DNA of 64,000 nt from an uncultured Prevotellaceae bacterium (GCA_947167995.1 CAMVKS010000003.1:30609-94608), one strand, 5' to 3'. Shown: positions 1 through 52,075, numbered from the stretch's first letter. Program-made: numbers and translations. Notes: generated by a model not told the origin, from the sequence alone.

Positions 1-812
1 TCACCAAAAATCTTGTGAATGGGTTTGCGCACATTGGGATTCAGGTGCATGGGATAAACAAAGTCAACATCGTGATATTTCTCACTCAAGTGTTTTATAG
101 CCTTGCAAATATTGATAAATCCATCGCCAAAGTTTTCACGTCTGTGACCAGTGATGAGTACCAACCTGCGGTCTTCATCAAGTCTTGAGACATCATAGCC
201 TTGTTCTTTGAGTTTAGAAGTAAGATTATTATTTAATTGCTTGTCGTTTTTAATCTTGTTCACAACAATGTGTAAAGCATCGATAACAGTATTACCTGTA
301 ACAAAAATATGTTCATCCCCTACCCCTTCGTTAAGAAGATTCTGGCGGCTCAGAAAAGTTGGGGCAAAATCGAGTGTGGCTATACGACCTGTGATTTGTC
401 GATTCATTTCCTCGGGCCAGGGGCTGTAGATGTTGTACGTTCTCAGTCCTGCCTCGACATGTCCCACTGGAATCTGTTGATAGAATGCCGCCAAGGCAGC
501 TGCTGTACTTGTAGATGTGTCGCCATGGACAAGAACAATGTCGGGTTTATCAGCATTGAGTACATCACGCATGCCGAGGAGCACCTTTGAGGTAACATCA
601 TATAAATCTTGACCTTGCTTCATTATATTCAGGTCATAATCAGGTTCAATCTCAAAGATTTTCAATACTTGGTCGAGCATCTCTCTGTGTTGCCCTGTAA
701 CACAAACGATAGGCTCAAATTTGTCGCTCTGCTGCTGCAGGCATTTCACAAGAGGAGCCATTTTTATAGCTTCGGGACGAGTGCCGAAAACCAGCATTAC
801 TCTTTTCTTCAT
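1..812 (-). CDS. wecB: UDP-N-acetylglucosamine 2-epimerase (non-hydrolysing), 3' end truncated by window edge
   Basis: Reverse translation from ATG at 812 gives MKKRVMLVFGTRPEAIKMAPLVKCLQQQ...VCVTGQHREMLDQVL...HGDTSTS...VGHVEAGLRT...ITGHRRENFG, typical WecB motifs; runs off window start so absent from the ORF track. Confidence 0.93.
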   Translation of the reverse strand, partial: MKKRVMLVFGTRPEAIKMAPLVKCLQQQSDKFEPIVCVTGQHREMLDQVLKIFEIEPDYDLNIMKQGQDLYDVTSKVLLGMRDVLNADKPDIVLVHGDTSTSTAAALAAFYQQIPVGHVEAGLRTYNIYSPWPEEMNRQITGRIATLDFAPTFLSRQNLLNEGVGDEHIFVTGNTVIDALHIVVNKIKNDKQLNNNLTSKLKEQGYDVSRLDEDRRLVLITGHRRENFGDGFINICKAIKHLSEKYHDVDFVYPMHLNPNVRKPIHKIFG

Positions 813-1025: not shown

Positions 1026-3776
1026 CTATTCTTCCAGAAGAATGTTGTAGATTACTGTCACATCGGTACTTGTTATAGATCCGTCTCCATTGACATCGCT
1101 GGTTGTGATGAATGCTTCATCTCCGTTGAGGAGATAATTGTAAAGTGCTGTGATGTCGGCACTTGTCACCACTCCATCGCAGTTTACATCGCCAAGGACA
1201 TGGTTGCTGCCCTTGACTGCGGTCACAATCACCACAAAGTCAGGCACCGATACCTCGGTGTGTGCGTCGGCCGAAGTCAGTACCACATTTTTCACTGTGA
1301 ACTCAGTCGTTCCGGTGAATTCCTCAATTGCCTTCATGTCGATGTTCATTATTGCTCCACTATTTCCTGTGAAGTCGGCTGGCGGAAAGCTCACTGCAAC
1401 CACACGGATGTCACCATTGGCCTTGGAATTGGCAATGATGTAGTGGTTGTCACTCATGCGGTCGGTGAGTTGTATGCTGTAATCGCCATTGTCGGCTTGA
1501 GGAATAGACAGCTCGGACGGCATAGCGATATCAAACTGCACCGCAGCAATATTGGTGATTTCATTATCCATAATCACAGGTATGCTCATCGTCTTTCCTG
1601 GCTCAATGCTGAAGTCATCAATGTAGAGCGTGTCGACTGGCACGTATGGTCCACTTGCGGTAACTACTACCGCAAAGTCATCGATAGTGATGTCTTCACC
1701 ATCGGTCTTAAGAACAACGTTTTTGACATTCATGACTGTCGAACCAGTGAACTCTCTTGTAGCATTGACTTTCAGGTACATGATGTTTCCATCATCGCCT
1801 GTGAAAGCCGCCACAGGATTGCTCGATTCCACAACATGCATCATTGAGCCTTGTGGTGTTAATGTAACCATGTGTCCATTGGCACGCTCTCCAAGTCTTG
1901 CCTGGTTGGCAACAGTAAGCTCCTGGGGAAGTTCAAGGTCAAACTCTACGGCATTAACCAGGACTGTCTCGTTGGTGAGTACTACTGGTACTTGCGTTGA
2001 GCGTCCTGGAGCAATGGCAAAGTCGCTGATGGTTAGATTGTCACTTGGAACATAAACACCATTGGCAGTGACATTAACATCAAAGTCATCAATCACTGTC
2101 TCAATCTCATCGGCACTGGAGAGAACCACATCGGTAACATGTATTGTAGCAGTTCCCGAGAAGTCGCGACTTGCAGTGATGTTGATATACATCACCTCGC
2201 CTGAGTTGCCGGTGAAATTGACTGCTGGGAAGCTGAAGGCGGCAATTGAAAGAATGTTGCCATTCATGTTCGCTACCACCTGGTGAGTCTCGCTCTTCCG
2301 GTCACTCAAAGTTACTCCCTGTGGAGACGCTGTGAGACCATTGGGCAACTCCAACTTGAGCTGGAAGCCTGCAACAGGAGTCGCCTCGTTGTCCATTATA
2401 ACAGGCACTTGCAGAGTTTGTCCCGGCGTGATCTCAAAATCATCAATATAGAAGAGATTCTCTGGTACATACACGCCATCGGCAGTTACAGTAACATCGA
2501 AGTTGTCGAGAGTGGTGACATCGTTGTTTGGCTCAAGCAGTCGCACATTGCTCACATTGATAACTGCCTGTCCCTCGAATGTGCGGTCGGCTGCAACTTC
2601 AATGTTCAGGACTGCACCTGTTGTTCCAGTGAAAAGACGTCCATACTTGCCTTTAACTTCAATCTTGTAGCTATTATCGCTAAGAGCAGTGATATTCAGG
2701 TTGTGATTAGGTGCACGGTCGGTAAGCTCAAAGGCATCTTCGGCAACAGTCAGGCCGTCGGGGATGACTATCTCAAAGCTGATACCGCTAAACTGTGTCA
2801 CTTCATTCTCGAGCAGAACTGGCATGATTTTAGTCTTTCCGGGCTTAATAGAGAAGTCCTCGATAATCAGATGATCACTTGGGACATACACGCCATTGGC
2901 AGTGACGTTAACATCAAAGTCGTCAACTGGGCTTTCGTGAGCATCGCTGGTGGCGAGAATAACATTGCGGAACGAAATTATTGCATTGCCAGTAAACGAC
3001 TTGCTTGCAGTGAGGTCGATATACATAATGTCGCCACTGTCGCCACTGAAATCGGTTGTAGGAAATCCAAATGCCACTACGCTCCAGTGGTCGCCATTTC
3101 TGTTGGCAACCAGTTGGTGGGTTTCTCCTTTTCGGTTGCTCAGGGTGAAAGAACTGGCATTAGTTGAAATGCCTTCAGGCAGATACATGTCGAACTGGAA
3201 TCCTGCTATCGCACTCGCATGATTATCAAGGACAACAGGCACATGGAGAGTGGAGCCTGGTGCAATGTCAAAATCATTCATATAGAACTCATTGCCCAAC
3301 ACGATGAAACCTTGGGCAGTCACATTCACGGCAATGTTGGGATGACTGTGCTCATGAGCATCGGCTGTTGTGAGTGCGATGTTTTTAACATTGATAACAG
3401 CTTGACCATCAAAGTCGGGCGCTGCTACTACATCGATGGTCAGCACTGCCCCACTCTGTCCTGTGAAATTGGTGGCAGGGAAACTGAAAGCCATCACCGT
3501 AGTGTGGTCGCCGTTGACATTTGTCATAAGTTGGTGCGAACTTGATGCGCGTTCGCCCAGTTTGAACCCACCTTCGGCAACGCTAAGTCCCGTAGGCATA
3601 TAAAGATCAAACTGGAAGGCGGCAAAGTCGTTGTCGGGATTGTCAAGCAAGACTGGCACGGTAATTGTGTCGCCAGCCTGAATGGAAAAATCATCGATAT
3701 GCAACTGATTAGCCGCCTGAGCATTCACTGCTCCAGCCACCAACATTATGGTTAAAATATGAAATAGCTTTTTCAT
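1026..3776 (-). CDS. Secreted protein with six tandem cohesin-like modules and a C-terminal dockerin-like domain
   Basis: Signal peptide MKKLFHILTIMLVAGAVNAQA; six repeats beginning xxIxDFxIxPGxTxxxPVxxxN; C-term LGDVNCDGVVTSADITALYNYLL...SDVNGDGSITSTDVTVIYNILL (two Ca-binding-type dockerin segments). Confidence 0.82.
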   Translation of the reverse strand: MKKLFHILTIMLVAGAVNAQAANQLHIDDFSIQAGDTITVPVLLDNPDNDFAAFQFDLYMPTGLSVAEGGFKLGERASSSHQLMTNVNGDHTTVMAFSFPATNFTGQSGAVLTIDVVAAPDFDGQAVINVKNIALTTADAHEHSHPNIAVNVTAQGFIVLGNEFYMNDFDIAPGSTLHVPVVLDNHASAIAGFQFDMYLPEGISTNASSFTLSNRKGETHQLVANRNGDHWSVVAFGFPTTDFSGDSGDIMYIDLTASKSFTGNAIISFRNVILATSDAHESPVDDFDVNVTANGVYVPSDHLIIEDFSIKPGKTKIMPVLLENEVTQFSGISFEIVIPDGLTVAEDAFELTDRAPNHNLNITALSDNSYKIEVKGKYGRLFTGTTGAVLNIEVAADRTFEGQAVINVSNVRLLEPNNDVTTLDNFDVTVTADGVYVPENLFYIDDFEITPGQTLQVPVIMDNEATPVAGFQLKLELPNGLTASPQGVTLSDRKSETHQVVANMNGNILSIAAFSFPAVNFTGNSGEVMYINITASRDFSGTATIHVTDVVLSSADEIETVIDDFDVNVTANGVYVPSDNLTISDFAIAPGRSTQVPVVLTNETVLVNAVEFDLELPQELTVANQARLGERANGHMVTLTPQGSMMHVVESSNPVAAFTGDDGNIMYLKVNATREFTGSTVMNVKNVVLKTDGEDITIDDFAVVVTASGPYVPVDTLYIDDFSIEPGKTMSIPVIMDNEITNIAAVQFDIAMPSELSIPQADNGDYSIQLTDRMSDNHYIIANSKANGDIRVVAVSFPPADFTGNSGAIMNIDMKAIEEFTGTTEFTVKNVVLTSADAHTEVSVPDFVVIVTAVKGSNHVLGDVNCDGVVTSADITALYNYLLNGDEAFITTSDVNGDGSITSTDVTVIYNILLEE

Positions 3777-3809
3777 ATCTAACAGAACTTTTCAATTAAG
3801 GTGTGTCAA

Positions 3810-5531
3810 TTATTTTACAAGCACCTTCTTGCCGTTAATTACATAAACTCCGGTTGGGAGACCCTTAGTGGCCTCGGCAGGGTTTACTCCTTGACGCAGG
3901 AGTACGCCCTTCATGTCATAGACATTAACGCCCTCACCGTCGGTACCAACTTGAGCGATTGCGGTGACAACAGTAGTATTGGCAGTCACATTAGGCAACA
4001 CGCTCTCCACCGCGTTGTACTGAGTGAAGAATATATCGCTGATGGTGATATTGTCGTTAGCATTAAGCGAAGAGTTGTTTTTAACTTTCAAGGTTATAAT
4101 GGCATCGCTGCCAGCAGCTATCTCAGCATTGTCGAGCGAGAAGCCAAGCAAGCGCACCGAGCCGTCGGGATTAACACCGGTCATCAACATGTGAGATGCG
4201 GCGCGCCCAGTAAGCTCGACATCCTCAAGTGTGAGACCTTGTGGCAGGGTGATGTCCATCTGGAAGCCAGCGTAAGCAGTGGCGTTGTCAAGAGCAATAG
4301 CGATAGTGCCTGTGGCGGGGTCGTAATCGCCGAGGCTAAGCACATCGCTAGTGGCGGCCTTAGGAGCATTCAGTGCTGGTGCCGCAGTATTGCCCACAGC
4401 AATGTTGGCGATAGCAATCAAGTCGGTGATGTTGATTGAGCCGCTTGCGTTCACGTCGGCAGCTTCCTCGACAAACACCTCGGGAGTGATGCCCACGATA
4501 TAGTTAGCCACGCACATCACATCGGTGACGTTAACTTTCTTGTCGGCATTCACATCGCCAGGAATAATTGGTTCCTCAAAGGGCAAAGTTCCGCTGCTGA
4601 GCACAACCTTAGCATTTCCACCAATGAAGCCCATTCCATCTTTCACTGGATCGGCAAGGGTGATGTTGCCCATGTCAAACACCGTCTCCGATGTCACCAC
4701 CGCCTTAGCGTCATCAGTGGTTACGACATCGGCATAGCCATCAGCATTCTGCACCCAATTATATAGACCGAAGTCATAGGTAATGCCCGTCTGGTTGTCT
4801 TTATAGCTGGTGAGCACTTGGTTGGGGTTAAGCCATGTGTTCTTGTCCTCTCCAGGAGTGAACTCCGGCACAAAACCATAGTCGAGGAAGTTGTAAATCG
4901 TCACCTTATTATTATAGTAATATAGGTAAACGGGAAATGAAGCCACGTTACCTGTGTTGTAAACGTGGTCATCACTGTCGAAGTCAACCTCATCATAGCT
5001 CATAGTTGCATTGCTGGCAATGAACTGGGTGTACATGCCGTTGTTATACATCGCTCCAGCATTCACATAGGCGTCATTGTCGGGGTCGTAATATATCAAA
5101 GCCAGGTTCCAAGTGGTGGAAATAGTGAAACCGCTGGAGTTAACACGACCTGAGAGAGAAGTATTGAGAATAGTGTTCACATTTTCATTGTTCACCACCG
5201 ACTGAGCAACCACATAAAGGTAGCAAGTGTATTGCTCATACTGGTAAGTGTAAACCGCCTGTGGCATAAACTGAATGGTGTTGGCGGCCCAGTTCACACT
5301 GAACGTGAGGTCGCTACCTTGAGCGAAATAGTTAGAAACCGTCACGCGACTGGTGCCTCCAGTATAGGCCATCGACACGCGGTTGCAACCGGTTGTGGCA
5401 CCCGTCTGGATGTCACGGTCCATCTCGATGTTGATGCTTGCAAGCTTCTCGGCAGTAAATGCCGAAGCAGCCCACGACACATTGGTCGTAGCCAACGCAA
5501 GCAGTAAGATAAGAAACAGATGTTTTTTCAT
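3810..5531 (-). CDS. Secreted protein with internal dockerin-like domain, cohesin-like module and T9SS-like C-terminal sorting tail
   Basis: Signal peptide; PGDVNADKKVNVTDVMCVANYIVG...ADVNASGSINITDLIAIANI; then cohesin-like ATAYAGFQMDITLPQGLTLEDVELTGRAASH; ends NVYDMKGVLLRQGVNPAEATKGLPTGVYVINGKKVLVK. Confidence 0.75.
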   Translation of the reverse strand: MKKHLFLILLLALATTNVSWAASAFTAEKLASINIEMDRDIQTGATTGCNRVSMAYTGGTSRVTVSNYFAQGSDLTFSVNWAANTIQFMPQAVYTYQYEQYTCYLYVVAQSVVNNENVNTILNTSLSGRVNSSGFTISTTWNLALIYYDPDNDAYVNAGAMYNNGMYTQFIASNATMSYDEVDFDSDDHVYNTGNVASFPVYLYYYNNKVTIYNFLDYGFVPEFTPGEDKNTWLNPNQVLTSYKDNQTGITYDFGLYNWVQNADGYADVVTTDDAKAVVTSETVFDMGNITLADPVKDGMGFIGGNAKVVLSSGTLPFEEPIIPGDVNADKKVNVTDVMCVANYIVGITPEVFVEEAADVNASGSINITDLIAIANIAVGNTAAPALNAPKAATSDVLSLGDYDPATGTIAIALDNATAYAGFQMDITLPQGLTLEDVELTGRAASHMLMTGVNPDGSVRLLGFSLDNAEIAAGSDAIITLKVKNNSSLNANDNITISDIFFTQYNAVESVLPNVTANTTVVTAIAQVGTDGEGVNVYDMKGVLLRQGVNPAEATKGLPTGVYVINGKKVLVK

Positions 5532-5555
5532 TGTTTTGATGTATTTATGATTTGG

Positions 5556-7478
5556 TCATTTATAAAGTTTCTTAGATGTGGTGCGATTGCCATTGTCGTA
5601 TGTGGTTACAACAACGTTCACACCGTTGAAAGGAGTAGAGCTCTCAATGCCAAGCATGTTGTAATATTTAATGCTAACAATCTTGCCTGATGTCTCAACA
5701 GTGTTGATGGCGGTGGGAACATCTATTAAGCGTAATGGATAAACTATATACTCGGCCGATAGGTCATCAGTAACAGGCTCACTCTGATTGCCATCTTTAA
5801 GAAGCGGAGCACCACTGGCAGCAGGCGCCACTTTTCTCAATATTGCATCAAACTCATAGACATATCCATCTTGAGGATTTCCTGCTGGGTAATAATCCCA
5901 GTTCACCTTGATACCACCTGTGAGATTGCTGGTATTACCGTCACTCATAGTGTAGAAATTGCCGTCGGCAGCGTTGTAGCATGCCCAAGTAATGTAGGCA
6001 TATTCCTGAACCTTAGGTGTCACGAAGAAGAAATGGCTATTGGATTCATAGTAATCCTCATTAAAACTTGGCATAATATAGATGTTGGGTTCGTAAGGGG
6101 TATCATCACCGACCACCGGAGTCGAAGTCACTGCAATAGTGGGGTTAACCTTGTCAACGAGCTTGCCAGTGATGCTCTTGCCCTTGATTATCTTTCCCAC
6201 ATAGTCGTCGGGATCGGCAACTCCAGTAAGCATCACCCAGTTGCTCTGGTCAAAATCGGCAACTGGCTGAAGTTTGGTGTTTCCAGCATATTCAGCTGCT
6301 ACTTGACCTAAAAAATCAATTTGTCCGTCACTAATCTGCGATGGATATTTATACTTACCCAAGTCCTTTGCAAAGAGAACAGCACCCAAAGTCACGGTAT
6401 AGTCATTATAAGAGGGACCAAGACGGCAAGAACCATTAACATAATCCCAACCACCTTGATCGTTATTCTGTGCCAATCCACTGGTGAGGCTGAAAGTATT
6501 CTGATTGTCGCTACGACCATCAAAATTCACAACCGCACTATAATGCACACCATCGGTGGTCGCCATTGGCTGGCCAACAGTTGGGTTCCAGTCATTTTCA
6601 TTTGCTTGGCCAAGAACATAGTAAGTGGGATGACTTCCATTATCAACGAAACCTGTAATTTCATCGGCACTTTGTGAAACAGTGAGAGAGTTGTTGCTTA
6701 GGTCCAAGTCAAGTTTATATCGACCCTTGTCAATCAAGAACGCATTAGAATTCCTACTCACTCCCATTGGCGCACTAAGCACACCATCAACTGTTGTAAC
6801 ACCCACAAGGTCGTCATAAACCTCATATTCCTCACCGACTGTGCCATCGTTTACAATATCGACGAGATCGGTTTTGATAATTGTCATCTTTGAGCGTTCA
6901 AAATACTCAACCACACGAGAACTACTGGGTGTATACCAATAAGTACCTTGAGCAATCACACATCCCCAAGGGTTATCAAGTGTTATCTCTCCTTTTTCTA
7001 AATCTATTGTACCATGACAATCAGTTCCTCCTGAATAAGTATAATAAATTCTCTCATTATAAATTGTTGTAACACCTTGCTGATAATAAATCATGTGAGA
7101 AACAAGAGCATGTTGATAACCAGTCCAACTGAATTTCGTGGTTTTGCCCAAATATGCAACTCGCCAAGTGAAAGAAGCTTTAGTATCACTCTCCCAAGTC
7201 AGTGATGTTGTACTTGCCCCATAATTAATGGGCAAATTCACAACTGCCGAAGAAGTATTTACAATATCAGTATTCCTATAAAAGTTATTAAATGTCAATT
7301 GCTGGGTTGATGCATCCCAAACAACAGTTACAGTATTTGTTCTCACAACTTGGCCGTTACGGTAATCTTCCTGCAAGAAGTCCTGTGTAAACGAAGCTGG
7401 TTGTGCCTTTGCTATATTATTTGTCACAAGTATTGCAAACAAAGCGACAAAAAACGATAAAGAAAAGAATTTTCTCAT
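5556..7478 (-). CDS. Secreted multidomain protein with C-terminal sorting-like tail (paralogue of 7627-8427 at both termini)
   Basis: ORF 5556..7496; likely start is the internal Met before RKFFSLSFFVALFAI signal peptide; N-terminal domain TLTWESDTKASFTWR and tail KYYNMLGIESSTPFNGVNVVVTTYDNGNRTTSKKLYK. Confidence 0.7.
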   Translation of the reverse strand: MRKFFSLSFFVALFAILVTNNIAKAQPASFTQDFLQEDYRNGQVVRTNTVTVVWDASTQQLTFNNFYRNTDIVNTSSAVVNLPINYGASTTSLTWESDTKASFTWRVAYLGKTTKFSWTGYQHALVSHMIYYQQGVTTIYNERIYYTYSGGTDCHGTIDLEKGEITLDNPWGCVIAQGTYWYTPSSSRVVEYFERSKMTIIKTDLVDIVNDGTVGEEYEVYDDLVGVTTVDGVLSAPMGVSRNSNAFLIDKGRYKLDLDLSNNSLTVSQSADEITGFVDNGSHPTYYVLGQANENDWNPTVGQPMATTDGVHYSAVVNFDGRSDNQNTFSLTSGLAQNNDQGGWDYVNGSCRLGPSYNDYTVTLGAVLFAKDLGKYKYPSQISDGQIDFLGQVAAEYAGNTKLQPVADFDQSNWVMLTGVADPDDYVGKIIKGKSITGKLVDKVNPTIAVTSTPVVGDDTPYEPNIYIMPSFNEDYYESNSHFFFVTPKVQEYAYITWACYNAADGNFYTMSDGNTSNLTGGIKVNWDYYPAGNPQDGYVYEFDAILRKVAPAASGAPLLKDGNQSEPVTDDLSAEYIVYPLRLIDVPTAINTVETSGKIVSIKYYNMLGIESSTPFNGVNVVVTTYDNGNRTTSKKLYK

Positions 7479-7562
7479 AAAAGTATAAAAATACAAATTA
7501 AAATTTTGAAATCAGAGAAAAACATGAAAACGCTTCATATTTATTCTCATCTATTTGCAATA

Positions 7563-7611
7563 AAAGGGTGTGCCAAAATGCATGATAATCAACATTCTGA
7601 TACACCCTTTT
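7563..7611 (-). terminator. Intrinsic terminator-like inverted repeat downstream of 7627-8427
   Basis: AAAGGGTGT ... ACACCCTTT inverted repeat with flanking A/T tracts and a ~30-nt loop. Confidence 0.5.
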
Positions 7612-7626
7612 ATTGATTGATTAAAA

Positions 7627-8427
7627 TTATCTAATTATCTGCTTTGAAGTAGTTTTCTGTCCGTTGCTGTACTCTTTAACGATGATGTTTACTCCATCGA
7701 AAGGAGTGGCTGACTCAACACCGAGAGTGTTGAAGTAACGAATGCTTACTACTTGAGCATCAGTATTTATGCCATTAATTGCGGTTGTAGTGCGTGACAT
7801 GTGAGAGCGTTCAAAATACTCAATTACTACAGATGCACTCATGTTGTTCCAGTTATTGTTGCCAATCACGCATCCCCAGGGGTTGGTGATATCAATAGTT
7901 CCAGCCTCTAAGTCGATAGTACCGTGACAATCTTGGCCACCATAGTAAGCATAATTGCTGGTGGCTGGGAGAGTGTTGGTAGTGGGGTCATACATTCTTA
8001 CCGGAGAGTTTACATGCTGGAAGCGAGCTACTACAGCAGCCTTGTAGGTGCGGAATGAGGCATAAGAGAAAGGCAAACTTTCAAACAAATCGCTCTGCCC
8101 CATCGAGTAGGCGCGCCAGGTGAAGTTGGCCTTGGTGTCGCTTTCCCAAGTGAGGGTAGTGGGACTTGAGGTCTCAGTAGCGTAAGATGGGATTACGAGA
8201 TTAACAACTTGGTCATTGACCATTTCATTAGAATAGAAATTGTTAATTGTCAACACACCTGTAGCGTCATCCCAAACAACATTGACTGTATTAGTTCTTA
8301 CAACCTCTTCACCACGATAGTCTTCCTGGGTGAATTCGGCATTAAACGAAGCACGTTGTGCATTAACTTTGTTAGCACCAATCAACAAGAGTGCGAACAA
8401 TCCAAATAGAGTAATTAATTTTTTCAT
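7627..8427 (-). CDS. Secreted protein with C-terminal sorting-like tail, short paralogue of 5556-7478
   Basis: Signal peptide MKKLITLFGLFALLLIGANKVNA; shares QEDYRxxxVVRTNTVxVVWD, TLTWESDTKAxFTWR, DCHGTIDLExGxIxxxNPWGCVI, VVEYFERSxM and the tail with the neighbour. Confidence 0.72.
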   Translation of the reverse strand: MKKLITLFGLFALLLIGANKVNAQRASFNAEFTQEDYRGEEVVRTNTVNVVWDDATGVLTINNFYSNEMVNDQVVNLVIPSYATETSSPTTLTWESDTKANFTWRAYSMGQSDLFESLPFSYASFRTYKAAVVARFQHVNSPVRMYDPTTNTLPATSNYAYYGGQDCHGTIDLEAGTIDITNPWGCVIGNNNWNNMSASVVIEYFERSHMSRTTTAINGINTDAQVVSIRYFNTLGVESATPFDGVNIIVKEYSNGQKTTSKQIIR

Positions 8428-34494: not shown

Positions 34495-35273
34495 AACGCA
34501 TAACCAACATAGATGAATTACGCTCAATACAGATGGCGATTCTTGATTCCATACATGAATTCTGCCAACGTGAAGAGATTACCTATTTTCTTTCAAGCGG
34601 TACGCTAATTGGCGCAGTTAGGCACAAAGGATATATTCCATGGGATGACGACATCGACCTCTACATGCCACGTGATAGTTATGATAGATTCATAAACTCC
34701 TATTCCTGTGAGTCTGGAAAATATCGCGTTATAGATCCACATACCGAGCAAAATTACTATTATACCTTTGCCAAAGTGGTTGATACCACTACCCTAATGA
34801 TTGAGACCGAGACTCCAGGCTATGAAATTGGAGTGTATATCGACATTTTTCCTGTTGATTACATAAGCGATGACCTCGAAGAAAGAACTAATGTCTTCAA
34901 GCGCAAGCACCTTCTGTATAAGATTAGGCGCTGCAAGATTTCACACAACAACCCACTATACTCAAAGTTTGCTTATGTCGTGTATAAGCACTGGCCTCGC
35001 TCGCTCAAGAGTCTAAATAATGAGATAGAGCACCTCATCACAAGCTGCAAGAAGTCGTCTACCGTGTGCAACCTCACCGAGGCCGGGCCCAAAATAGGTG
35101 GATGCTTCCCAGCAAAATGCATCGAGAGCGATGTGGACATCGAGTTTGAGGGCAAACTATATAAAACAATGGTGGGATATAAAGAATATCTCACCAAGAC
35201 CTACGGCGACTATATGACATTGCCGCCCGAGGACAAACGAGTCCATCACGACTTTGAGGCTTACTGGCTTTGA
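34491..35273 (+). CDS. LicD family phosphotransferase
   Basis: SSGTLIGAVRHKGYIPWDDDIDLYMPRDSYDRF; ATGA overlap with flippase; true start likely Met12 of the listed ORF. Confidence 0.92.
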   Translation: MKRITNIDELRSIQMAILDSIHEFCQREEITYFLSSGTLIGAVRHKGYIPWDDDIDLYMPRDSYDRFINSYSCESGKYRVIDPHTEQNYYYTFAKVVDTTTLMIETETPGYEIGVYIDIFPVDYISDDLEERTNVFKRKHLLYKIRRCKISHNNPLYSKFAYVVYKHWPRSLKSLNNEIEHLITSCKKSSTVCNLTEAGPKIGGCFPAKCIESDVDIEFEGKLYKTMVGYKEYLTKTYGDYMTLPPEDKRVHHDFEAYWL

Positions 35274-36286
35274 GCAATCATGTTCATGCCCCACCGATAA
35301 ACCTCTTCAATGACAGGAGTTTTAAAGTTTATATCTCTTGCCACTTTCACAATAGAATATAGGCCATAAGGAAAATCTTCGGTAAAATAACGGCTATTGA
35401 AATCGGGCTCATAACCGTCATTTTCATTGCCAATCATTGGGGCCTTTATATTCTTAAAAGCAGGAATAGATGCAAGTTTGTCACAGAGCGACTGCTCATC
35501 GTGACTGTCATAGTAGTCGAGTACATTGGGAATTGCTCCATTAGAAATAGGAAGCAGCTTGAGCATTGCTTGAAATTCTCGGTCCATTTCAATATAATAA
35601 TGAGCTGCCTCAATGGTCCAATCGGCATAAAATGACGGACAGTGGTCATACTTCACCCCTGGCTTCCAATTTTTCCAAAGAGAATAGATACGGGAGGTGT
35701 GAAGTAATGGGTTGCTGTTGGTGAGACTCACTTCAAAATGGCTACTCAACAATTTGATTGGGACTTGGAAAATGTGCTCGAGCATTAATAGCAATTCTTG
35801 CTTTTTTGCATCGGATGTGTTTTCAATAGCAACACTAAGACTTGGCTTATAACCTAATAGACTTGCACTCTTCCCATATTCTTTTGTACGGGCAATAAAC
35901 GGAACTCGTTGAAATCCAAAGATTGGTATATCAGATGACAACACTTGAGCCGCCATAAAGAAAAATCCAGTGCTCGACACCACTGTCCCAACAAATGTAG
36001 AAGGACTCAAATATGGTTTTATCTGTTGCAACACATCTTTGATAGCATATCCTGGTAAGCAAAGCAGCACAATGTTGGCGTTGGAAATAGCTAATGAAGG
36101 GGTATTTGTCACATATAACAATTCCCCATGATAATGGTGATTATCCAAATCGGTAACATCGATTGCTTTACTCCATTTTTCAGGATTACGTGTCAAGACA
36201 CTAACGTTGTAATCTTCTTTTGATGCCACAAAGCCTGCTATCGTATGACCAAGTGAGCCACCCCCGCATATACAAATGTTTGTCAT
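35261..36286 (-). CDS. NAD/NADP octopine/nopaline (opine) dehydrogenase-like protein
   Basis: Rossmann start MTNICICGGGSLGHTIAGFVASKEDYNVSVLTRNPEKW; opine-DH-like C-terminal region. Confidence 0.75.
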   Translation of the reverse strand: MTNICICGGGSLGHTIAGFVASKEDYNVSVLTRNPEKWSKAIDVTDLDNHHYHGELLYVTNTPSLAISNANIVLLCLPGYAIKDVLQQIKPYLSPSTFVGTVVSSTGFFFMAAQVLSSDIPIFGFQRVPFIARTKEYGKSASLLGYKPSLSVAIENTSDAKKQELLLMLEHIFQVPIKLLSSHFEVSLTNSNPLLHTSRIYSLWKNWKPGVKYDHCPSFYADWTIEAAHYYIEMDREFQAMLKLLPISNGAIPNVLDYYDSHDEQSLCDKLASIPAFKNIKAPMIGNENDGYEPDFNSRYFTEDFPYGLYSIVKVARDINFKTPVIEEVYRWGMNMIAQSQ

Positions 36287-38091
36287 AGTGATTGCAATGC
36301 ATTAATTAATTTGTCATTTTCCTCACTTGTGCGAATTGCAATACGAATATAGTTCTTGCCCTGAAGCCCTGTTTTGTTATTGCAATCTTTGATAAGAATG
36401 TTAAAATTGTTAAGAAGTAATTCGGTCAGTTCATTGGCACTATATCGGTCTACCACTTCACACAAAAAATAGTTGGCTTGAGAAGGTATTACCCGCAAAA
36501 AAGGTATATTTTTTAACTTTGCAGCAAAACGACTTCGCTCTTCAACAAACTTGCAGCAGGCTACTTTGTAGAACTGTTCATATTTGTTGAAAATCTGCAT
36601 GTAAAACTCGGCAAATGAGTTTATGTTCCAAATACTAACGTCCTTCTTGACTGTGGCTATTATCTGGATGTCACTACTCGCCATAACTCCAAGCCTGAGT
36701 CCTGGCACTCCATAACTCTTGCTGATGCTTTTAATAACTACCATGTTTGGATTTTTCAGCAATGTGTCGTTTTCGAGCAATGAACTGGTTGCGGATTCGT
36801 CGGTAAAATCAACAAACGATTCATCTACGATAAGTCTCAAACCTCGTTGATGGCACCAGTTGGCCAAATCCAGCACTTCTTTTTTATTAATGAAGTTTCC
36901 TGATGGGTTGTCGGGATTAATGAGTAGCAGTGTGCTTATCTCCTTACAGTCAAAAAAGGATTCAAGATCTTCGGCAGTATAACGTAAATCGGAATTATTG
37001 GGAATGAATGCAACAAGACGTGAGCGGTCAACTCGGTTTGGGTATTCCTCAAAAGTGGGAAATACGACTCCTATATCTCCCTCGATACTCTCCATCAGAC
37101 TCTTTATCAGTTCGGCAGCTCCATTGCCCACTACCACAAAATCCTGCCTTATGTTAAAGTATTTACCAGCCAATAGAGAATTAACTTGCATTCCCGAAGG
37201 ATACTCGGTGAGCAAAACATCGAAATTAGCACGCAACTCATCTTTCATTCGAGATGGAGGAAAATAGGGATTAACCAAATAACAGAAGTCAAGCATTTTT
37301 GGGAAACGCCAGTAGCCTCCAAAACGTTTATTATATTTCCCCAAGCGTTCATGCTCGTTGGCAAAGATGTTTTCAGCGATATCAAGATCTTGAATGTCAT
37401 CAATCTCATACCATCGCTTATTACCTACAGGAAGAGCTTTCAGGTTTGCCCCGTCAAGCAAAGTTATGACACGGAGCACCTGTTCATAGTACTCATTGTT
37501 GCCCATCACTCGGCAGTAAGCATCAAGGAATGGCACATACACTTTCTCGCTGAACTCACGACTGAATTTGTAAATATTCACAGTCTTATAGTAGGAACTC
37601 ACCTCATCGTAGTTGAACGCCTTCTTAGGTACGAAGTTGACGATATTGTTGTCGCTGTCGATTCGCACCATAGTGCCGTCCATCCATGTCTCATATTTTG
37701 CCACGAGAGCCAGATTGGGATAATGGTCGGCAAGAATCATATCAAACATCGCATCGTCAAAAATCAAATCACTTTCAATCAACAAAGTGTCATCCTTGAC
37801 AAGTTCGTCTTTGGCAAGTGCGAGAGAATAGATATTGTTGGTCTTGTCATAAATGGGATTGACAATCCATTGTATAGGTATTCCCTCATAGCTGTCGCCC
37901 ACGTGAGCCATAAGCGACTCTCGGCAATAGCCAGCTACAATAACAATACGGTTTATGTCTTGTGCTTTAAGCTGACCGAGCATGCGGTCGATGAGCTTCA
38001 CGCCATTAACCTCAATCATGCACTTGGTGTTGTTTCGGGTTTTCTCACCCAAGCGGCGACCCATTCCTGCCGCCAATATCAATGCTTGCAT
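36283..38091 (-). CDS. Fusion: LicC-like nucleotidyltransferase + CobD/HisC-like PLP-dependent enzyme
   Basis: N-term MQALILAAGMGRRLGEKTRNNTKCMIEVNGVKLIDRML; C-term LDFCYLVNPYFPPSRM, LLINPDNPSGNFI, LIVDESFVDF, SISKSYGVPGLRLGV (PLP lysine). Confidence 0.85.
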   Translation of the reverse strand: MQALILAAGMGRRLGEKTRNNTKCMIEVNGVKLIDRMLGQLKAQDINRIVIVAGYCRESLMAHVGDSYEGIPIQWIVNPIYDKTNNIYSLALAKDELVKDDTLLIESDLIFDDAMFDMILADHYPNLALVAKYETWMDGTMVRIDSDNNIVNFVPKKAFNYDEVSSYYKTVNIYKFSREFSEKVYVPFLDAYCRVMGNNEYYEQVLRVITLLDGANLKALPVGNKRWYEIDDIQDLDIAENIFANEHERLGKYNKRFGGYWRFPKMLDFCYLVNPYFPPSRMKDELRANFDVLLTEYPSGMQVNSLLAGKYFNIRQDFVVVGNGAAELIKSLMESIEGDIGVVFPTFEEYPNRVDRSRLVAFIPNNSDLRYTAEDLESFFDCKEISTLLLINPDNPSGNFINKKEVLDLANWCHQRGLRLIVDESFVDFTDESATSSLLENDTLLKNPNMVVIKSISKSYGVPGLRLGVMASSDIQIIATVKKDVSIWNINSFAEFYMQIFNKYEQFYKVACCKFVEERSRFAAKLKNIPFLRVIPSQANYFLCEVVDRYSANELTELLLNNFNILIKDCNNKTGLQGKNYIRIAIRTSEENDKLINALQSL

Positions 38092-40703: not shown

Positions 40704-41402
40704 TCAGACTTGTCTGAAAAGAAGTTTTCGTGCAAGTGTCAAAAGATGAATCTGACGCTTGATGCGCTTTGGCTCCTTAAATAAACGATAGGCAAACTCC
40801 AAGTTATGATCAACCCACCACTTTGGTGCACGCTCCACATTGCCAGTATAAACATCAAAGCTTCCACCAAGCCCCTGATATATAGCACTGTGACGCTTCT
40901 TCATCTCACCCATGAGCAATTCCTGCTTGGGGCTCCCCATAGCCACAAACACCACATCGGGTATCTTAACTGCGACATCATCAATCAATTCATTGCGTTC
41001 CTCGTCGTTTTTTAAATAACCATTGCGATATCCCACAATGTTGATTCCGGGAAAATCCTCATGTAGTTTTGAGATGGTTGCTTCAATAATTTCTTGTTTT
41101 CCACCTATAAGATAGAAACTCTTGGTTCTGTAATATCGCTTTACTATATCAAGCCACAATTCACAGCCTGGTATCTTAACAACATTTTTAGCACCTCGTT
41201 GCTTGAGAGCCCAAACAGCACCAATTCCATCACAATAACCTGTGTTGTTGTTAATGATTTCACGTGTTAATTGAGTGGCGTTGACAATTTTCTCGGCATT
41301 AACTGCAACAAGAATTGATTTGTTTTCTTCGAGATAGACCATTAGTTCTTCTCGTGAAGAAAAAGGGCAAATATCAATTCCGTTTATTGTTATCTTGTTC
41401 AT
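40704..41402 (-). CDS. WecG/TagA/CpsF family glycosyltransferase
   Basis: NAEKIV; YCDGIGAVWALKQRG; FYLIGGKQEIIEAT; VFVAMGSPKQELLM; GLGGSFDVYTGNVERAPKWW. Confidence 0.93.
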   Translation of the reverse strand: MNKITINGIDICPFSSREELMVYLEENKSILVAVNAEKIVNATQLTREIINNNTGYCDGIGAVWALKQRGAKNVVKIPGCELWLDIVKRYYRTKSFYLIGGKQEIIEATISKLHEDFPGINIVGYRNGYLKNDEERNELIDDVAVKIPDVVFVAMGSPKQELLMGEMKKRHSAIYQGLGGSFDVYTGNVERAPKWWVDHNLEFAYRLFKEPKRIKRQIHLLTLARKLLFRQV

Positions 41403-41472: not shown

Positions 41473-42435
41473 TTAATCTCTTGATTGCAAATCTTGTTTT
41501 ATAACATCAATACGATCAATAAGCGATTTGGTCACGCGATGCTTTCCATAGATTGAGTAACCACTGGCAAGATAATCTAAATAGGCCATTGTATAGCTAT
41601 AACAATCAAAAATCATAATGCTTGACTCGCCAATGGTCGATGATTGAATTGCATCATAATCTTTGAGTAACTTTGTCATTATTGAACAATCGCGATAGGC
41701 TCCTGCCCAAGGTGAATGCACTGTTGTTTGCACCGAAAGGGAATTTCCATTACTATCAACACATTTTATATTATACTTTTTCTTGCTATAGACCGTTACA
41801 GGGTGTGCATCTCCCAACATGTCCTCTATTGCATGAATAAATGTCACATTATTCTGTGTAGCACCCAATAAAAGAATCTTTGCTCTTCGTTGTAATAATT
41901 TGTAATATGGGCTATGACTACCAAACGGCGTAGTATCCAAATGATGCTCATCTGTGTAAAAATGTGAGTCTTTGCCAATAGCAACAACCGAGTGTGTAGG
42001 ATGAATGCTACGCACTGCATCAGGATTAGCAGCCAATCTTTCATTAATCACTCCCATGGCGATGGGAGCTGTCCTGACATCAAAGACATAATCATCTTTT
42101 AGCCAAGCAGCAAAGCTTCCACGATAAGGTAAAGCCGATATGAGTAATGTGTGTTGATTCAAGTCAATTTTTTCCAGTAAGCTTGATGCTATAAATTTTG
42201 CTCCTCCCTGAATTTTACCTATGTTGACCATAGAGCTATGAAGCATTATATCAGAGTCGAAATCAAAATCATGTAAAGCTGTCAAGAAATCTTCTTTGCT
42301 TACATAAGAACGATGCGCAATGTCCATTGCACGTTGTAACTCCATTTGCTGCATTCTTGCTTGGATTTTATTTTTTATAAATGCAGGTGAATAGAAAAGT
42401 GCAAGTTTAGCACATGCCTTAACCGTCTTGTTCAT
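41473..42435 (-). CDS. AAC(3)-family N-acyltransferase-like protein
   Basis: DIMLHSSMVNIGKIQGGAKFIASSLLEKI; NPDAVRSIHPTHSVVAIG; TPFGSHSPYYKLLQRRAKILLLGATQNNVTFIHAIED. Confidence 0.8.
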   Translation of the reverse strand: MNKTVKACAKLALFYSPAFIKNKIQARMQQMELQRAMDIAHRSYVSKEDFLTALHDFDFDSDIMLHSSMVNIGKIQGGAKFIASSLLEKIDLNQHTLLISALPYRGSFAAWLKDDYVFDVRTAPIAMGVINERLAANPDAVRSIHPTHSVVAIGKDSHFYTDEHHLDTTPFGSHSPYYKLLQRRAKILLLGATQNNVTFIHAIEDMLGDAHPVTVYSKKKYNIKCVDSNGNSLSVQTTVHSPWAGAYRDCSIMTKLLKDYDAIQSSTIGESSIMIFDCYSYTMAYLDYLASGYSIYGKHRVTKSLIDRIDVIKQDLQSRD

Positions 42436-43429
42436 TCAAATAATCACTTATTGTAAAAAATCGATCTCTATTGCCAACAACACTTTGAGCAAACTCATCT
42501 AATTTCATTACCGAAAAAGGTGTCGCGAGTTTTGGGTGACCAAGTACCGTTATTGCCTCTTTACCATCTTTTTTGGCTTTTTTATAAGCTTTTTCAAGAA
42601 AGTTTATTTTATAGCCATCGATAGTAGTGTGACAGTTCTGCCACCAAAGGAGACGGCTTAGAATGCTGTTGGTCGTAGTTTTAACAGAAATGCCATCGCC
42701 ATAAGGCACATGTTTTGACTGCTTTGCAAACCGATTATATACCAGTCCCCAATGAAATATTGGTGGCACTCTGTACATAGAAATTGGAATTTCAGTAAAC
42801 TGTCCTTTCGCTGAGTGAATACAAATATCACTTTCAAATCTATAAATAGATTTTTGTGTAGGTGCAGAACTGAAATCATACTCTTGCTGTGGGGAATTAT
42901 AACAAGCTCCTGGAATCACTGAAGAATCAGCGACTAATCCTGTGGCAAGAAAAATGTCGGTCAATAACGGTGTAGGTTGTGCTGAGAATCCACCAGCACG
43001 AAATACTGTCGTTTTTGACCCGATGATTTCGTCAAGGAAATCTTTAGCGTCCTGTGTGAGTTGAATTGCTTCAGTTCTTGATAAATCTTTGAGCTTATAG
43101 TGCCCTGTATCGGTAATCCATGCCCCATTATTATAATCAGAATGAGCCCAGTGAGGATGAATGTGAAGTTGAATATCATGCCCTTGCTCCTTTAACAAAC
43201 GTAAATGATTAACTATTCTATTAAAATCATGTTGCAGTTGGGAATGAGTTGAAGACAATTGCTTTAGTCGGAGCAAATAGGTAGCATCGACGAAAATTGT
43301 GAACCGTCCGTCATATTTGAGTAATGTCTCGCTTAGCAAAGACATTGGTTTAATCAAGCAATTCTCAATCGTGCCAGTTTTTTGCCCGAGAAACAATTCA
43401 TAATCAAGTGTAATAAGTACTTTCATCAA
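42419..43429 (-). CDS. Polysaccharide deacetylase-like (NodB-type) protein
   Basis: LITLDYELFLG, HIQLHIHPHW..FRAGGFS..DSSVIPG..VLGHPK fit the five NodB motifs loosely. Confidence 0.6.
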   Translation of the reverse strand: MMKVLITLDYELFLGQKTGTIENCLIKPMSLLSETLLKYDGRFTIFVDATYLLRLKQLSSTHSQLQHDFNRIVNHLRLLKEQGHDIQLHIHPHWAHSDYNNGAWITDTGHYKLKDLSRTEAIQLTQDAKDFLDEIIGSKTTVFRAGGFSAQPTPLLTDIFLATGLVADSSVIPGACYNSPQQEYDFSSAPTQKSIYRFESDICIHSAKGQFTEIPISMYRVPPIFHWGLVYNRFAKQSKHVPYGDGISVKTTTNSILSRLLWWQNCHTTIDGYKINFLEKAYKKAKKDGKEAITVLGHPKLATPFSVMKLDEFAQSVVGNRDRFFTISDYLNEQDG

Positions 43430-43498
43430 TTCATAATAAATGTACAGTTAATATCACACAAAGCTACAGGTAGCCAAAGAATTATAATGTAAAAATTA

Positions 43499-43726
43499 TT
43501 ATCTAATCATTGACAACTTATAAACATCCTCTACCGTGACACATTCTCTCAATTCGGCGGGAGAAATTGTCCTTCCTGTTATAGATTTAACATAGGCAAG
43601 AACTGCCATTCCCGTAAGAGAACTCCACTCATCTAAATCGTGGAACACTGTAGTTGCTTGAATTTCGTCTGGTTCGGTTTCGTCAAACAGTTCTGCAAAA
43701 CCTTTTACAAATTCTTCTAAAGTCAT
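43499..43726 (-). CDS. Acyl carrier protein
   Basis: MTLEEFVKGFAELFDETEPDEIQATTVFHDLDEWSSLTGMAVLAYVKSITGRTISPAELRECVTVEDVYKL; start taken at Met16 of the listed ORF. Confidence 0.8.
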   Translation of the reverse strand: MTLEEFVKGFAELFDETEPDEIQATTVFHDLDEWSSLTGMAVLAYVKSITGRTISPAELRECVTVEDVYKLSMIR

Positions 43727-43868
43727 TTGAATAATTAAAATTTGCTCTTTTTTATTATTATTTTGGCGCAAACAAGGCAGAGCTATTTCCTCATTTGTTT
43801 ATCCATCAAGTAATTATATTTAATCTATTTGTATATGCCAACACTTTTGGCACTGAGATAAATAATGG

Positions 43869-44873
43869 TCACTTAGTAAAGGACAATATAGTCCCACCCC
43901 ATGACAATCCCACACCAAAACCAGCAATCATAACTTTCATGCCAGGCTTGATGTCGCAGCGCTCCATGGCATCCTTTAATCCTATAAACACGGTTGAGGA
44001 TACAGTATTTCCTGTCTCTTCCATATTAATATAGAATTTCTCTTTAGGAATTTGCACAATCTTGCGAAGTGCATTCAACATAAAAGCATTGGCTTGATGA
44101 AAAACATAGTAATCCACGTTGCTGGTCGTCATTTTATTTTTTTCCAACAATTCATTTAGCAATCTTGGAACAGTATCTAAGGTGAAATTAAAAATAGCCC
44201 CGCCGTTCATATACAAATAATCATCTCGCCAAATGTGTTCCTGGTCGTCGACAACACATTTACCTGTGGGCTGTGGATTTCGTGATGCTCCCGTCTTGAG
44301 TATAAGGTTATTTGCTCCACTACCATCAGTCCCTAAAACAAATTTTTCTATCTTGGCAAACCCATTGTTTGAGACAAGGCAAGCCGCAGCACCATCGCCA
44401 AAAATCGAACGATTGCTTTTGTCTTGAGGATGCAGATATTTATTGTAAGTCTCAGAAGTGATTAGCAAAACATTGTGAGCAATACCAGCTTCAATCAGTC
44501 CTGTTGCCATCGCTAAACCATATACACACCCTGAGCAACCCAAGTTATAATCAAACGCACCAGAACTTGAGGGTATTCCAAGTCTATTTTGTAGCAGACA
44601 TGCAGTTGAAGGTAAAAAATAATCTGGACTCTGTGTACACAACATGATGAAATCGATGTCTTGTGGGTTGATGTCATGCTCTTCAAATAGTTTTCGAGCC
44701 GCTTTCTCGGCCATATCGCCAGCTGTTTCATCTTCAGCAGCGACATGACGGCTGTATACTCCTATTTTTTTAGCAACTTTATCTACGCTCCACTCTGGGA
44801 ATTCTGCTATGAGGTCTTCATTAGTCACCACATGCTCTGGCAGATAGTATGATATAGCTTTTATATATGCCAT
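43869..44873 (-). CDS. 3-oxoacyl-ACP synthase III (KASIII/FabH-like)
   Basis: Catalytic residues present: YNLGCSGCVYGLA (Cys), YVFHQANAFML (His), EETGNTVSS (Asn). Confidence 0.9.
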   Translation of the reverse strand: MAYIKAISYYLPEHVVTNEDLIAEFPEWSVDKVAKKIGVYSRHVAAEDETAGDMAEKAARKLFEEHDINPQDIDFIMLCTQSPDYFLPSTACLLQNRLGIPSSSGAFDYNLGCSGCVYGLAMATGLIEAGIAHNVLLITSETYNKYLHPQDKSNRSIFGDGAAACLVSNNGFAKIEKFVLGTDGSGANNLILKTGASRNPQPTGKCVVDDQEHIWRDDYLYMNGGAIFNFTLDTVPRLLNELLEKNKMTTSNVDYYVFHQANAFMLNALRKIVQIPKEKFYINMEETGNTVSSTVFIGLKDAMERCDIKPGMKVMIAGFGVGLSWGGTILSFTK

Positions 44874-49536: not shown

Positions 49537-50595
49537 TTATAGAAATTTCGTTATGAGTGCATTAACTGTCAGCCATAATATAAGCATAATTGTTAAAACA
49601 ACTGTAACTCCCAAATAATTTGACAAATATATAGAAGTTCCGGTCAAGAAAATAAAAACCAGTAACTCCACAATTAATGTTACATGTTGGGAAAGACCTA
49701 ACCTGAGCAACTTGTGGTGAAAATGATTGTCATCTGCATTAAAAGGATTCCGCCCATTTATTAAACGATATAATACAACATTAACAACATCAAAGCATGG
49801 AAGAATAAGAGGAGAAAATGCAACAATAAATGAATTTTTATGTATTAACACAGGTGTTTGAGGAGCACAGTTGACCACTATAGCCAAGACACAAAGTACA
49901 AGCCCAAGCACTGTAGAGCCTGTATCACCCATAAATGTCTTATTATGACTGGATGCTTTGCCCTTAAAGTTAAAATAGAAGAAAGGCAACAAAACACCAA
50001 TAAATGATACAGGTAGAAGAACTTTATAGTCACCATTTGTGTATAATATCACCGAATAATATATAAAAGACAGAATTGCTATACTTGAAGATAGGCCATC
50101 GATTCCATCAATAAAATTAAACGCATTGATACTCAAAATTATTAGAAATATTGTTACACATAATCCAAACGTATATGGAAGATCATATAGTCCTAAGAGT
50201 CCATGAAAATTATTCAATAAGAACCCCGTCAAGCACAAAACAAGTCCAGCAATAAACTGGAATATGAATTTTGTACGATAACGAAGTCCTTTAATATCAT
50301 CAGCTATGCCTAAGATATACAAGATAAATATCGATGCTACCAAACCTAATACAGGCATAGTACTTCCAACAGAAAATCCTTTACTGCCAAGAATTAAGCA
50401 ACCAGTAATGAATGATACAATAGCGACTGGCACAAAAGCCACTCCACCAAGTCGTGGGATATCTCCTTTATGAATTTTTCTCTTTGTGTGTAAATCAAAC
50501 AAATTATGATTATAAGCATATTTCATAATCAACCTTATCAAAAATGCTGATAAAGAACAACTTATAATCAAAACTACTATGATTGAAGATAACAT
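49537..50595 (-). CDS. Undecaprenyl-phosphate sugar-1-phosphate transferase (WecA/MraY family)
   Basis: HKGDIPRLGGVAFVP; LGIADDIKGLRYRTKF; NAFNFIDGIDGLSSS; FMGDTGSTVLG; NPFNADDNHFHHKLL. Confidence 0.93.
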   Translation of the reverse strand: MLSSIIVVLIISCSLSAFLIRLIMKYAYNHNLFDLHTKRKIHKGDIPRLGGVAFVPVAIVSFITGCLILGSKGFSVGSTMPVLGLVASIFILYILGIADDIKGLRYRTKFIFQFIAGLVLCLTGFLLNNFHGLLGLYDLPYTFGLCVTIFLIILSINAFNFIDGIDGLSSSIAILSFIYYSVILYTNGDYKVLLPVSFIGVLLPFFYFNFKGKASSHNKTFMGDTGSTVLGLVLCVLAIVVNCAPQTPVLIHKNSFIVAFSPLILPCFDVVNVVLYRLINGRNPFNADDNHFHHKLLRLGLSQHVTLIVELLVFIFLTGTSIYLSNYLGVTVVLTIMLILWLTVNALITKFL

Positions 50596-50869: not shown

Positions 50870-52075
50870 CTATTTTTTGAAGATGCCACAAAAGTCAAGA
50901 ATAACCTTATCATCACGCCATTCAAGCTGCTTGAACTCATCATGAGCTGTCAAGAATACTACAATGTCTGCTTTCTCGTAGGCCTCTTTAAATGGCGTGA
51001 GTTTGAACACTTTATGTTCATTGATATTGGGCTCAACAACGAGAAAATCAGCATTGTTCTTGCTCTGCATAACCTCGGTAGTAATTCGTTTGGCAGGAGA
51101 TTCACGCAGGTCATCAATATTTGGCTTGAAGGCAAGGCCCATCATTGCAACGACTGGCTTGCGATGGTTCTCAAGTTCAAACTCAAGCATCGCGTTCTTC
51201 ACACGCTCAGCACACCATTGTGCTTTGTAGTTATTAATTTCACGGGCTTGAGCAATGATTCTTGCCTGTTTGGGATAAGCAGCAGTGATAAAATAAGGAT
51301 CCACAGCTATGCAGTGCCCTCCAACTCCACATCCAGGCTGAAGGATATTTACACGCGGATGCTTGTTGGCTAGATTAATCAAATCCCACACGTTGATGCC
51401 AGCCTGTTCGCATATCATCGATAGCTCATTGGCGAATGCAATCTGCACATCACGGCTTGAGTTCTCGGTTAGTTTGCATAACTCTGCGGTGCGAGCATTG
51501 GTTCGGTGAAGCATGCCAGTTACAAACTGTGAATAAAATTCTATAGCATGAGTAGTTGATTCTTCATCAATGCCACCAATCACACGGTCATTGTTAACAA
51601 GCTCATAGATCACATTGCCAGGCAGTACACGTTCTGGACAGTAAGCTATATGAATAGATCCTTTTAATTCTGGACGCTCACTGAATATATACTCAGCCAT
51701 CTGCTCAGTAGTGCCCACTGGTGATGTCGATTCTATAACAAACAAATCGCCAGGTTTAAGAAGTGGCATCACCATGCTTGTTGCATTTTTGACATAAGAA
51801 ATATCAGGCTCATGATCGCCCTTAAATGGAGTGGGTACAACAATAAAATAAGCATCACTCACAACTGGGCTTGATGTGGCTGTGAATTTCCCTGACGCCA
51901 GTACTTGTTGCAGTAATTCCTCCAATCCAGGTTCTACGATGTGCAGATGTCCTTTTAAAGTTTCTTCAACAACTTTTGCATTGATATCAACACCAGTCAC
52001 ATCAACACCATGTTTTGCTGCTATTATCGCTGTGGGAAGGCCAATGTAGCCCAGTCCCATGAAACAAGCTTTCAT
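50870..52075 (-). CDS. wecC: UDP-N-acetyl-D-mannosamine dehydrogenase
   Basis: ACFMGLGYIGLPTAIIAAKHGVDVTGVDIN; VESTSPVGTTEQ; NVYLxLANKHPRVNILQPGCGVGGHCIAVDPYF-type block; AFKPNIDDLRESPA. Confidence 0.93.
   Translation of the reverse strand: MKACFMGLGYIGLPTAIIAAKHGVDVTGVDINAKVVEETLKGHLHIVEPGLEELLQQVLASGKFTATSSPVVSDAYFIVVPTPFKGDHEPDISYVKNATSMVMPLLKPGDLFVIESTSPVGTTEQMAEYIFSERPELKGSIHIAYCPERVLPGNVIYELVNNDRVIGGIDEESTTHAIEFYSQFVTGMLHRTNARTAELCKLTENSSRDVQIAFANELSMICEQAGINVWDLINLANKHPRVNILQPGCGVGGHCIAVDPYFITAAYPKQARIIAQAREINNYKAQWCAERVKNAMLEFELENHRKPVVAMMGLAFKPNIDDLRESPAKRITTEVMQSKNNADFLVVEPNINEHKVFKLTPFKEAYEKADIVVFLTAHDEFKQLEWRDDKVILDFCGIFKK

Follow-up and report, generated by a model that had tools for sequence, protein, structure and literature searches.

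A probable N-acyl exchange cassette in bacterial polysaccharide loci that joins a NodB-fold deacetylase to an AAC(3)-fold acyltransferase

Why should a polysaccharide operon carry, side by side, genes resembling those for acyl-chain synthesis, sugar deacetylation and aminoglycoside acetylation? The question is raised by a 64,000-nt stretch of DNA from an uncultured Prevotellaceae bacterium (GCA_947167995.1 CAMVKS010000003.1:30609-94608), referred to here in its full length as the window. A FabH-like ketoacyl-acyl carrier protein synthase III (KASIII), an acyl carrier protein (ACP), a deacetylase-like protein (DEAC) and an AAC(3)-like N-acyltransferase are encoded there in tandem (41473-44873), all on the minus strand, within a polysaccharide operon. 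A preliminary description proposed that the deacetylase exposes a sugar amine, onto which the AAC(3)-like enzyme installs an unusual acyl group built by KASIII and ACP. The four consecutive genes are indeed present, and the 17-bp overlap reported for the DEAC and AAC(3)-like open reading frames (ORFs) is borne out by their coordinates. Gene content, conserved active sites, a predicted fold and recurrent, partner-exchanging linkage suggest that the four genes probably work in the cytoplasm as a cassette that exchanges the N-acyl group of an amino sugar destined for the polysaccharide. The proposed swap thus finds support in conserved residues, co-occurrence and partner switching; from these we infer every chemical step, the acyl group, the acceptor and the choice of ACP, rather than CoA, as direct donor.

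DEAC (start codon TTG, or ATG one codon downstream) scores 18.1 bits against the CE4/NodB model PF01522, below the gathering threshold of 23.1, while a relative from Aquimarina latercula (L129) scores 25.6, above it. The protein carries the motifs D-Y-E, QLHxHP[HQ]W, RAGG and GHPK, and in an alignment of 90 homologues D9, E11, H89, H91, R144 and H298 are invariant. In a profile alignment of DEAC with XrtA-type CE4 deacetylases from the same loci, the motifs that contain Asp, His and Arg coincide. Given the invariant residues and this agreement, a metal site of a variant type is predicted to be present, and the loss of metal-binding residues that would have undermined the proposal was not found, both metal and catalytic residues being conserved. 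The VimE equivalog NF053580 gave no match to the window DEAC at E<=0.01, and identity with VimE was rejected.

A hidden Markov model search of the PDB with DEAC gave no significant match, and its structural relation was found by fold search. An AlphaFold2 model built on 73 homologues (an earlier model from 6 sequences was poor at residues 174-209) reached a predicted local distance difference test score of 97.6. Foldseek returned ArnD (8T0J) as the top PDB match, with E values down to 4e-7; further matches were 3RXZ, 3QBU, HP0310, peptidoglycan deacetylases (PgdA) and GH57 enzymes. DEAC is expected in the cytoplasm, because the first β-strand of the model begins at residue 3, leaving no room for a signal peptide. 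As the fold also spans GH57/GH38 and PuuE, DEAC might instead be another amide or ester hydrolase or a glycan-active enzyme (O-deacetylase, allantoinase-like or GH57-like), with the AAC(3)-like protein acylating an amine made by an aminotransferase; the MT2 variant HxHP[H/Q]W, unlike the HTxxH of CE4, and a nearby protein with an aminotransferase domain would fit such an enzyme. We consider this quite unlikely: the D-x-E, His, Arg and His residues fit the XrtA-type CE4 profile and are invariant, the formyl-, sulfo- and acyltransferases near DEAC are all candidate amine cappers, and ArnD, the closest structural match, takes a formyl group off an amino sugar that is carried on a lipid.

The AAC(3)-like protein matches PF02522 (Antibiotic_NAT) at 134.7 bits (cut-off 25) and aligns to solved AAC(3) structures, with the conserved His of the HP motif and the His and Glu of TxxHxxE in place; among DEAC-paired members His145 is kept in 37 of 38, His201 in all 38 and Glu204 in 37 of 38. 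Shared family membership would also be expected if the gene conferred genuine aminoglycoside resistance and its place in the operon were accidental. That explanation is extremely improbable, since the protein reaches 86.3 bits where the NCBIfam AAC_3 resistance equivalog requires 270, is a linked neighbour of DEAC across tens of genomes and belongs to a group whose genes sit inside polysaccharide operons. Resistance was rejected as its role on the equivalog score and the DEAC linkage, and AAC(3) matches in capsule operons should not be taken for resistance genes. An AAC(3)-annotated gene occurs together with genes for N-acetylmannosaminuronic acid (ManNAcA) in the capsule locus of Porphyromonas gingivalis (PMC8003790).

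The window KASIII scores 275 bits against NCBIfam PRK09352 (cut-off 249), and its closest solved structure is 3GWA. The Cys-His-Asn triad claimed for it was confirmed as Cys113, His259 and Asn289, without variation among 13 homologues. The only other KASIII detected in the genome, 28% identical, adjoins rpmF and era and is for that reason regarded as the housekeeping FabH; the operon copy was rejected for that role and, given this second gene, is considered dedicated. The ACP, likewise described beforehand as a dedicated copy, proved real: its 4'-phosphopantetheine Ser is invariant (17/17), and close relatives exceed the PF00550 cut-off, although the window protein itself received no Pfam call and its NCBIfam match is weak (Table 1). 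Its ORF allows 75 to 90 aa, and an internal ATG is the probable start, giving 75 aa.

The genes are found together in other genomes, where a failure to co-occur would have told against the proposal, and this recurrence excludes a chance grouping of the four. Contigs were scanned with the single DEAC sequence, which gave no match, and with the DEAC alignment, which succeeded; counts of named loci refer to the best 80 of 322 relatives from the latter scan, kin included, and organism names of metagenome-assembled genomes are as deposited. Among 61 relatives, the 7 genomes with a full-length DEAC match were the same 7 that have an AAC(3)-like gene, which adjoined DEAC in every case examined. In 31 of the 80 named loci, and also in anonymous genomes, DEAC has the AAC(3)-like gene as its immediate neighbour, always co-directional and in either order, with overlapping ORFs in about half of the adjacent pairs. 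DEAC and AAC(3) distance matrices correlate at r = 0.88, a value reached in 0 of 2000 permutations, with ancestry partly shared. On the DEAC tree the AAC(3) pairing requires at least 7 changes and has therefore been gained or lost repeatedly. KASIII was present at 11 of 37 AAC(3)-paired DEAC loci and at 0 of 52 unpaired ones (Fisher 2e-5, ignoring kinship).

The full set is rearranged across lineages, more than mere inheritance would give. The window order, KAS-ACP-DEAC-AAC3, is replaced by KAS-ACP-SDR-(KAS)-DEAC-AAC3 in L051 and L052 (SDR, short-chain dehydrogenase/reductase), by DEAC-AAC3-..-ACP-SDR-KAS in L054, L055 and L056, by DEAC-AAC3-x-KAS-ACP-SDR in L039 and by ACP-KAS-AAC3-DEAC in Flavobacteriaceae (Flavobacteriia; L058, L070, L085, L107). 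Some pairs lacking KAS are accompanied by other acyl-activating genes: an AMP-ligase with ACP and SDR (L029, L037), FkbH with ACP (L026), or a PaaK-like ligase (L027, L028 and a Pseudoalteromonas plasmid). On that plasmid, pTHAF3_a, the order is wecB-wecC-..-AAC(3)-DEAC-PaaK ligase-..-WecG family (L144 8162-11337). This pair outside Bacteroidota lies in a VPS-like polysaccharide locus where DEAC is annotated as hypothetical and the ligase as phenylacetate-CoA-ligase-like; a search for Vibrio vpsG/vpsH genes returned nothing. A small conserved protein adjoins AAC(3) in L039 (12144-12593) and L037 (10884-11318), and the 149-aa L039 copy had no Pfam match.

DEAC also changes partners. Within two genes of it, 60 of the 80 loci encode an acyl-, formyl-, sulfo- or GNAT/FemAB-type transferase (families Pfam-confirmed on examples), and where AAC(3) is missing a formyltransferase, a sulfotransferase or a GNAT/FemAB enzyme is often found at that distance. 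The exchange is plainest between A. latercula L129 and another Aquimarina, L085, compared over genes -3 to +4: gene order is shared, and identities are 66% for DEAC, 70% for WecG, 76% for the XrtA-type deacetylase and 80% for a WecA-like gene, yet upstream of DEAC stands a formyltransferase in L129 and ACP-KAS-AAC3 in L085. The simplest reading of these sequences is that DEAC uncovers an amine and the neighbouring cassette decides how it is capped.

The sulfotransferase belongs to PF13469 in the members tested. It occupies gene -1 of DEAC in L030/L086, L060, L061, L063, L065, L066, L077 and L083, and gene -2 in L062, L068, L076, L091 and L109; some of these loci have a heparinase II/III-like gene nearby. 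Sulfotransferase and DEAC together represent a possible bacterial N-deacetylase/N-sulfotransferase pairing. A neighbour cluster labelled 'C5epi' was dropped as a C5-epimerase, its only matches being weak and Pec_lyase/GH88-like.

How might the four window proteins act together? KASIII would condense a short acyl-CoA with a malonyl group carried by the dedicated ACP. The product would be a 3-ketoacyl-ACP, which with acetyl-CoA as primer would be acetoacetyl-ACP. A FabG-type enzyme may then reduce the 3-ketoacyl to a 3-hydroxyacyl group, so that KASIII alone would yield the former, and KASIII assisted by a cellular FabG, or by an SDR such as related loci encode, the latter; the plainest guess for the acyl group is 3-hydroxybutyryl or acetoacetyl. 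DEAC, as a metal enzyme, would de-N-acetylate a sugar precursor, and the AAC(3)-fold enzyme would place the special acyl group on the freed amine, probably from ACP. The best candidate for the precursor is ManNAcA, UDP- or lipid-linked, an assignment we make tentatively and at slightly under even chances. It is favoured because WecB, WecC, WecA-like and WecG genes share the window with the cassette (Table 1) and WecG-family genes lie near DEAC elsewhere, no more than two genes away at 30 of 80 loci; Microbulbifer loci are arranged as WecB-WecC-DEAC-WecG. DEAC could act on UDP-ManNAcA, or after WecG-type transfer to N-acetylglucosamine (GlcNAc)-PP-undecaprenol.

Several observations weigh against this exchange cassette. 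DEAC position 93, where CE4 enzymes have their second canonical metal His, is His in 81 of 90 homologues and Gln in 9, though H91 is invariant, and in G169 the AAC3-like gene and DEAC lie on different contigs. Related loci bring their own SDR, whereas the window operon has no ketoreductase. WecG and WecC are common capsule genes, which makes the acceptor assignment soft. To our knowledge, all characterised AAC(3) enzymes use acetyl-CoA, and some 19 AAC3-DEAC pairs from environmental Bacteroidota occupy a VimE-type locus that lacks acyl-synthesis genes in the vicinity, so that plain acyl-CoA may on occasion be the donor for the pair. The acetyl-CoA habit of AAC(3) enzymes, and the lack of KAS at about 26 of 37 AAC3-DEAC pairs, would suit an alternative in which DEAC and AAC(3) form a swap pair fed by ordinary acyl-CoA, with KASIII and ACP serving another operon product such as an O-acyl ester or a lipid. 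This is unlikely in view of the confinement of KAS to AAC(3)-paired DEAC loci, the tight ACP-KAS-AAC3-DEAC blocks of Flavobacteriia and the alternative acyl-activation systems that some KAS-free pairs carry.

The environmental locus has a conserved make-up of WecB-like, VimE-like, AAC(3), DEAC, GNAT and uracil-phosphoribosyltransferase-like genes (L071, L072, L089, L092, L102, L104, L106, L110, L113, L114, L124, L126, L127 and others), and the VimE-like member tested matches NF053580. Such loci may concern a second N-acyl exchange, on the linking sugars of type IX secretion.

If the exchange cassette is extended to all DEAC loci, it becomes possible, though we would sooner doubt than assert it, that DEAC is the constant element of a general platform for exchanging the groups on sugar amines, acting on a ManNAcA-type capsule precursor, into which lineages plug capping modules: AAC(3) fed by KASIII/ACP, AMP-ligase or FkbH, a formyltransferase, a sulfotransferase or a FemAB-type aminoacyl transferase. 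On that view, resistance enzymes of the AAC(3) fold would be related to polysaccharide N-acyltransferases that draw on acyl-ACP, and DEAC with the sulfotransferase would amount to a bacterial N-deacetylase/N-sulfotransferase. Such exchange would explain how the N-substituent of a capsule sugar could change by cassette swap while the glycosyltransferase backbone stays unchanged.

Table 1. Cassette genes and associated polysaccharide genes in the window
Feature	Coordinates	Strand	Evidence
KASIII (FabH-like ketoacyl-ACP synthase III), extra dedicated copy	43869..44873	-	PRK09352, conserved triad
Dedicated acyl carrier protein (ACP)	43499..43771	-	NCBIfam ACP 8e-5, relatives PF00550, invariant Ser
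DEAC, predicted NodB/CE4-fold deacetylase, uncharacterised family	42419..43429	-	90-sequence alignment, XrtA-type CE4 profile, AF2/Foldseek
AAC(3)-fold (PF02522) N-acyltransferase	41473..42435	-	Pfam 4.9e-39, conserved His/His/Glu
WecG/TagA/CpsF-family glycosyltransferase, next downstream gene	40704..41402	-	PF03808 1.9e-50
UDP-ManNAc dehydrogenase (WecC), same operon, makes UDP-ManNAcA	50870..52075	-	PRK11064 509 vs 459 bits
WecA-like polyprenyl-phosphate GlcNAc-1-phosphate transferase	49537..50595	-	TIGR02380 2.5e-38, below exception cut-off
UDP-GlcNAc 2-epimerase (WecB), supplies UDP-ManNAc, cut by window edge	1..803	-	TIGR00236

The WecB gene spans G000:C3:30269-31411 in full, the window beginning at C3:30609. 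The same polysaccharide region encodes a fusion of a sugar-1-phosphate nucleotidyltransferase with a CobD/HisC-like aminotransferase (36283-38091, minus strand), which is adjoined by an octopine-dehydrogenase-like protein (35261-36286, minus strand). A relative of the latter (phmmer 2e-33) lies near the AAC3-DEAC pair of L027, and opine-type decoration of the polysaccharide is a possible role. Upstream of the capsule region, ORF translations indicate a run of large secreted-looking repeat proteins (1026-8427, minus strand), some with dockerin-like C-terminal repeats.

The window proteins resemble two groups of characterised enzymes. ArnD, the 4-deoxy-4-formamido-arabinose-phosphoundecaprenol deformylase, has the NodB-like fold predicted for DEAC and N-deacylates a lipid-linked amino sugar, but the two are only about 13% identical, and ArnD removes formyl from Ara4FN without an AAC(3)-type partner. 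The AAC(3) aminoglycoside N-acetyltransferases, YokD and FrbF have in common with the window AAC(3)-like protein the family PF02522 and its His/Glu motifs; unlike the resistance enzymes, the window protein falls far under the NCBIfam cut-offs, is encoded in a polysaccharide operon and would take its acyl group from an acyl-ACP.

At the level of pathways, the wfpC-wfpG genes of the Flavobacterium psychrophilum O-polysaccharide locus encode a KAS, an ACP, a ketoreductase and an N-acyltransferase proposed to join a hydroxyacyl group to an amino sugar (PMC6519341). This too would be KAS/ACP-fed N-acylation of a Bacteroidota polysaccharide sugar, but there an aminotransferase, in place of a deacetylase, supplies the amine, and the acyltransferase is PglD-like. 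In Nod factor synthesis, the deacetylase NodB bares the amine of GlcNAc and the ACP-fed N-acyltransferase NodA re-acylates it with a chain built by a dedicated KAS and ACP, NodE and NodF (PMC5080398), a division of labour like that proposed here. The proteins differ: the Nod KAS is of KASI/II type and its acyltransferase is NodA, whereas the cassette proteins matched only KASIII and PF02522 models and not NodA-family or KASI/II-type NodE ones. The Nod acceptor is a chitooligosaccharide signal that receives long acyl chains, whereas a capsule precursor is proposed for the cassette.

The Wbp/Vim pathway of P. gingivalis and Tannerella forsythia employs the deacetylase VimE and the FemAB/GNAT-type VimA (PMC7468200). 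It likewise swaps N-acyl groups in Bacteroidota, here on a uronic acid derived from a nucleotide sugar, and a CE4-type deacetylase is followed by a transferase that changes the C-2 N-substituent, but VimE belongs to another family than DEAC, VimA adds Ser or Gly, and no KAS or ACP takes part; VimE-like, AAC3 and DEAC genes stand together at some 19 related loci. AAC(3) in polysaccharide N-acylation was not found described in the open-access literature, nor were the DEAC family and the modular exchange, which we regard, together with the AAC(3)-fold partner, as new. Two common polysaccharide-locus gene types, named by homology alone as 'hypothetical' or 'deacetylase-like' and as 'aminoglycoside acetyltransferase', thereby gain a testable function. 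The preliminary view of the four-part logic as undescribed is right for these protein families only: the roles are already known from Nod factors, and the swap from Wbp/Vim.

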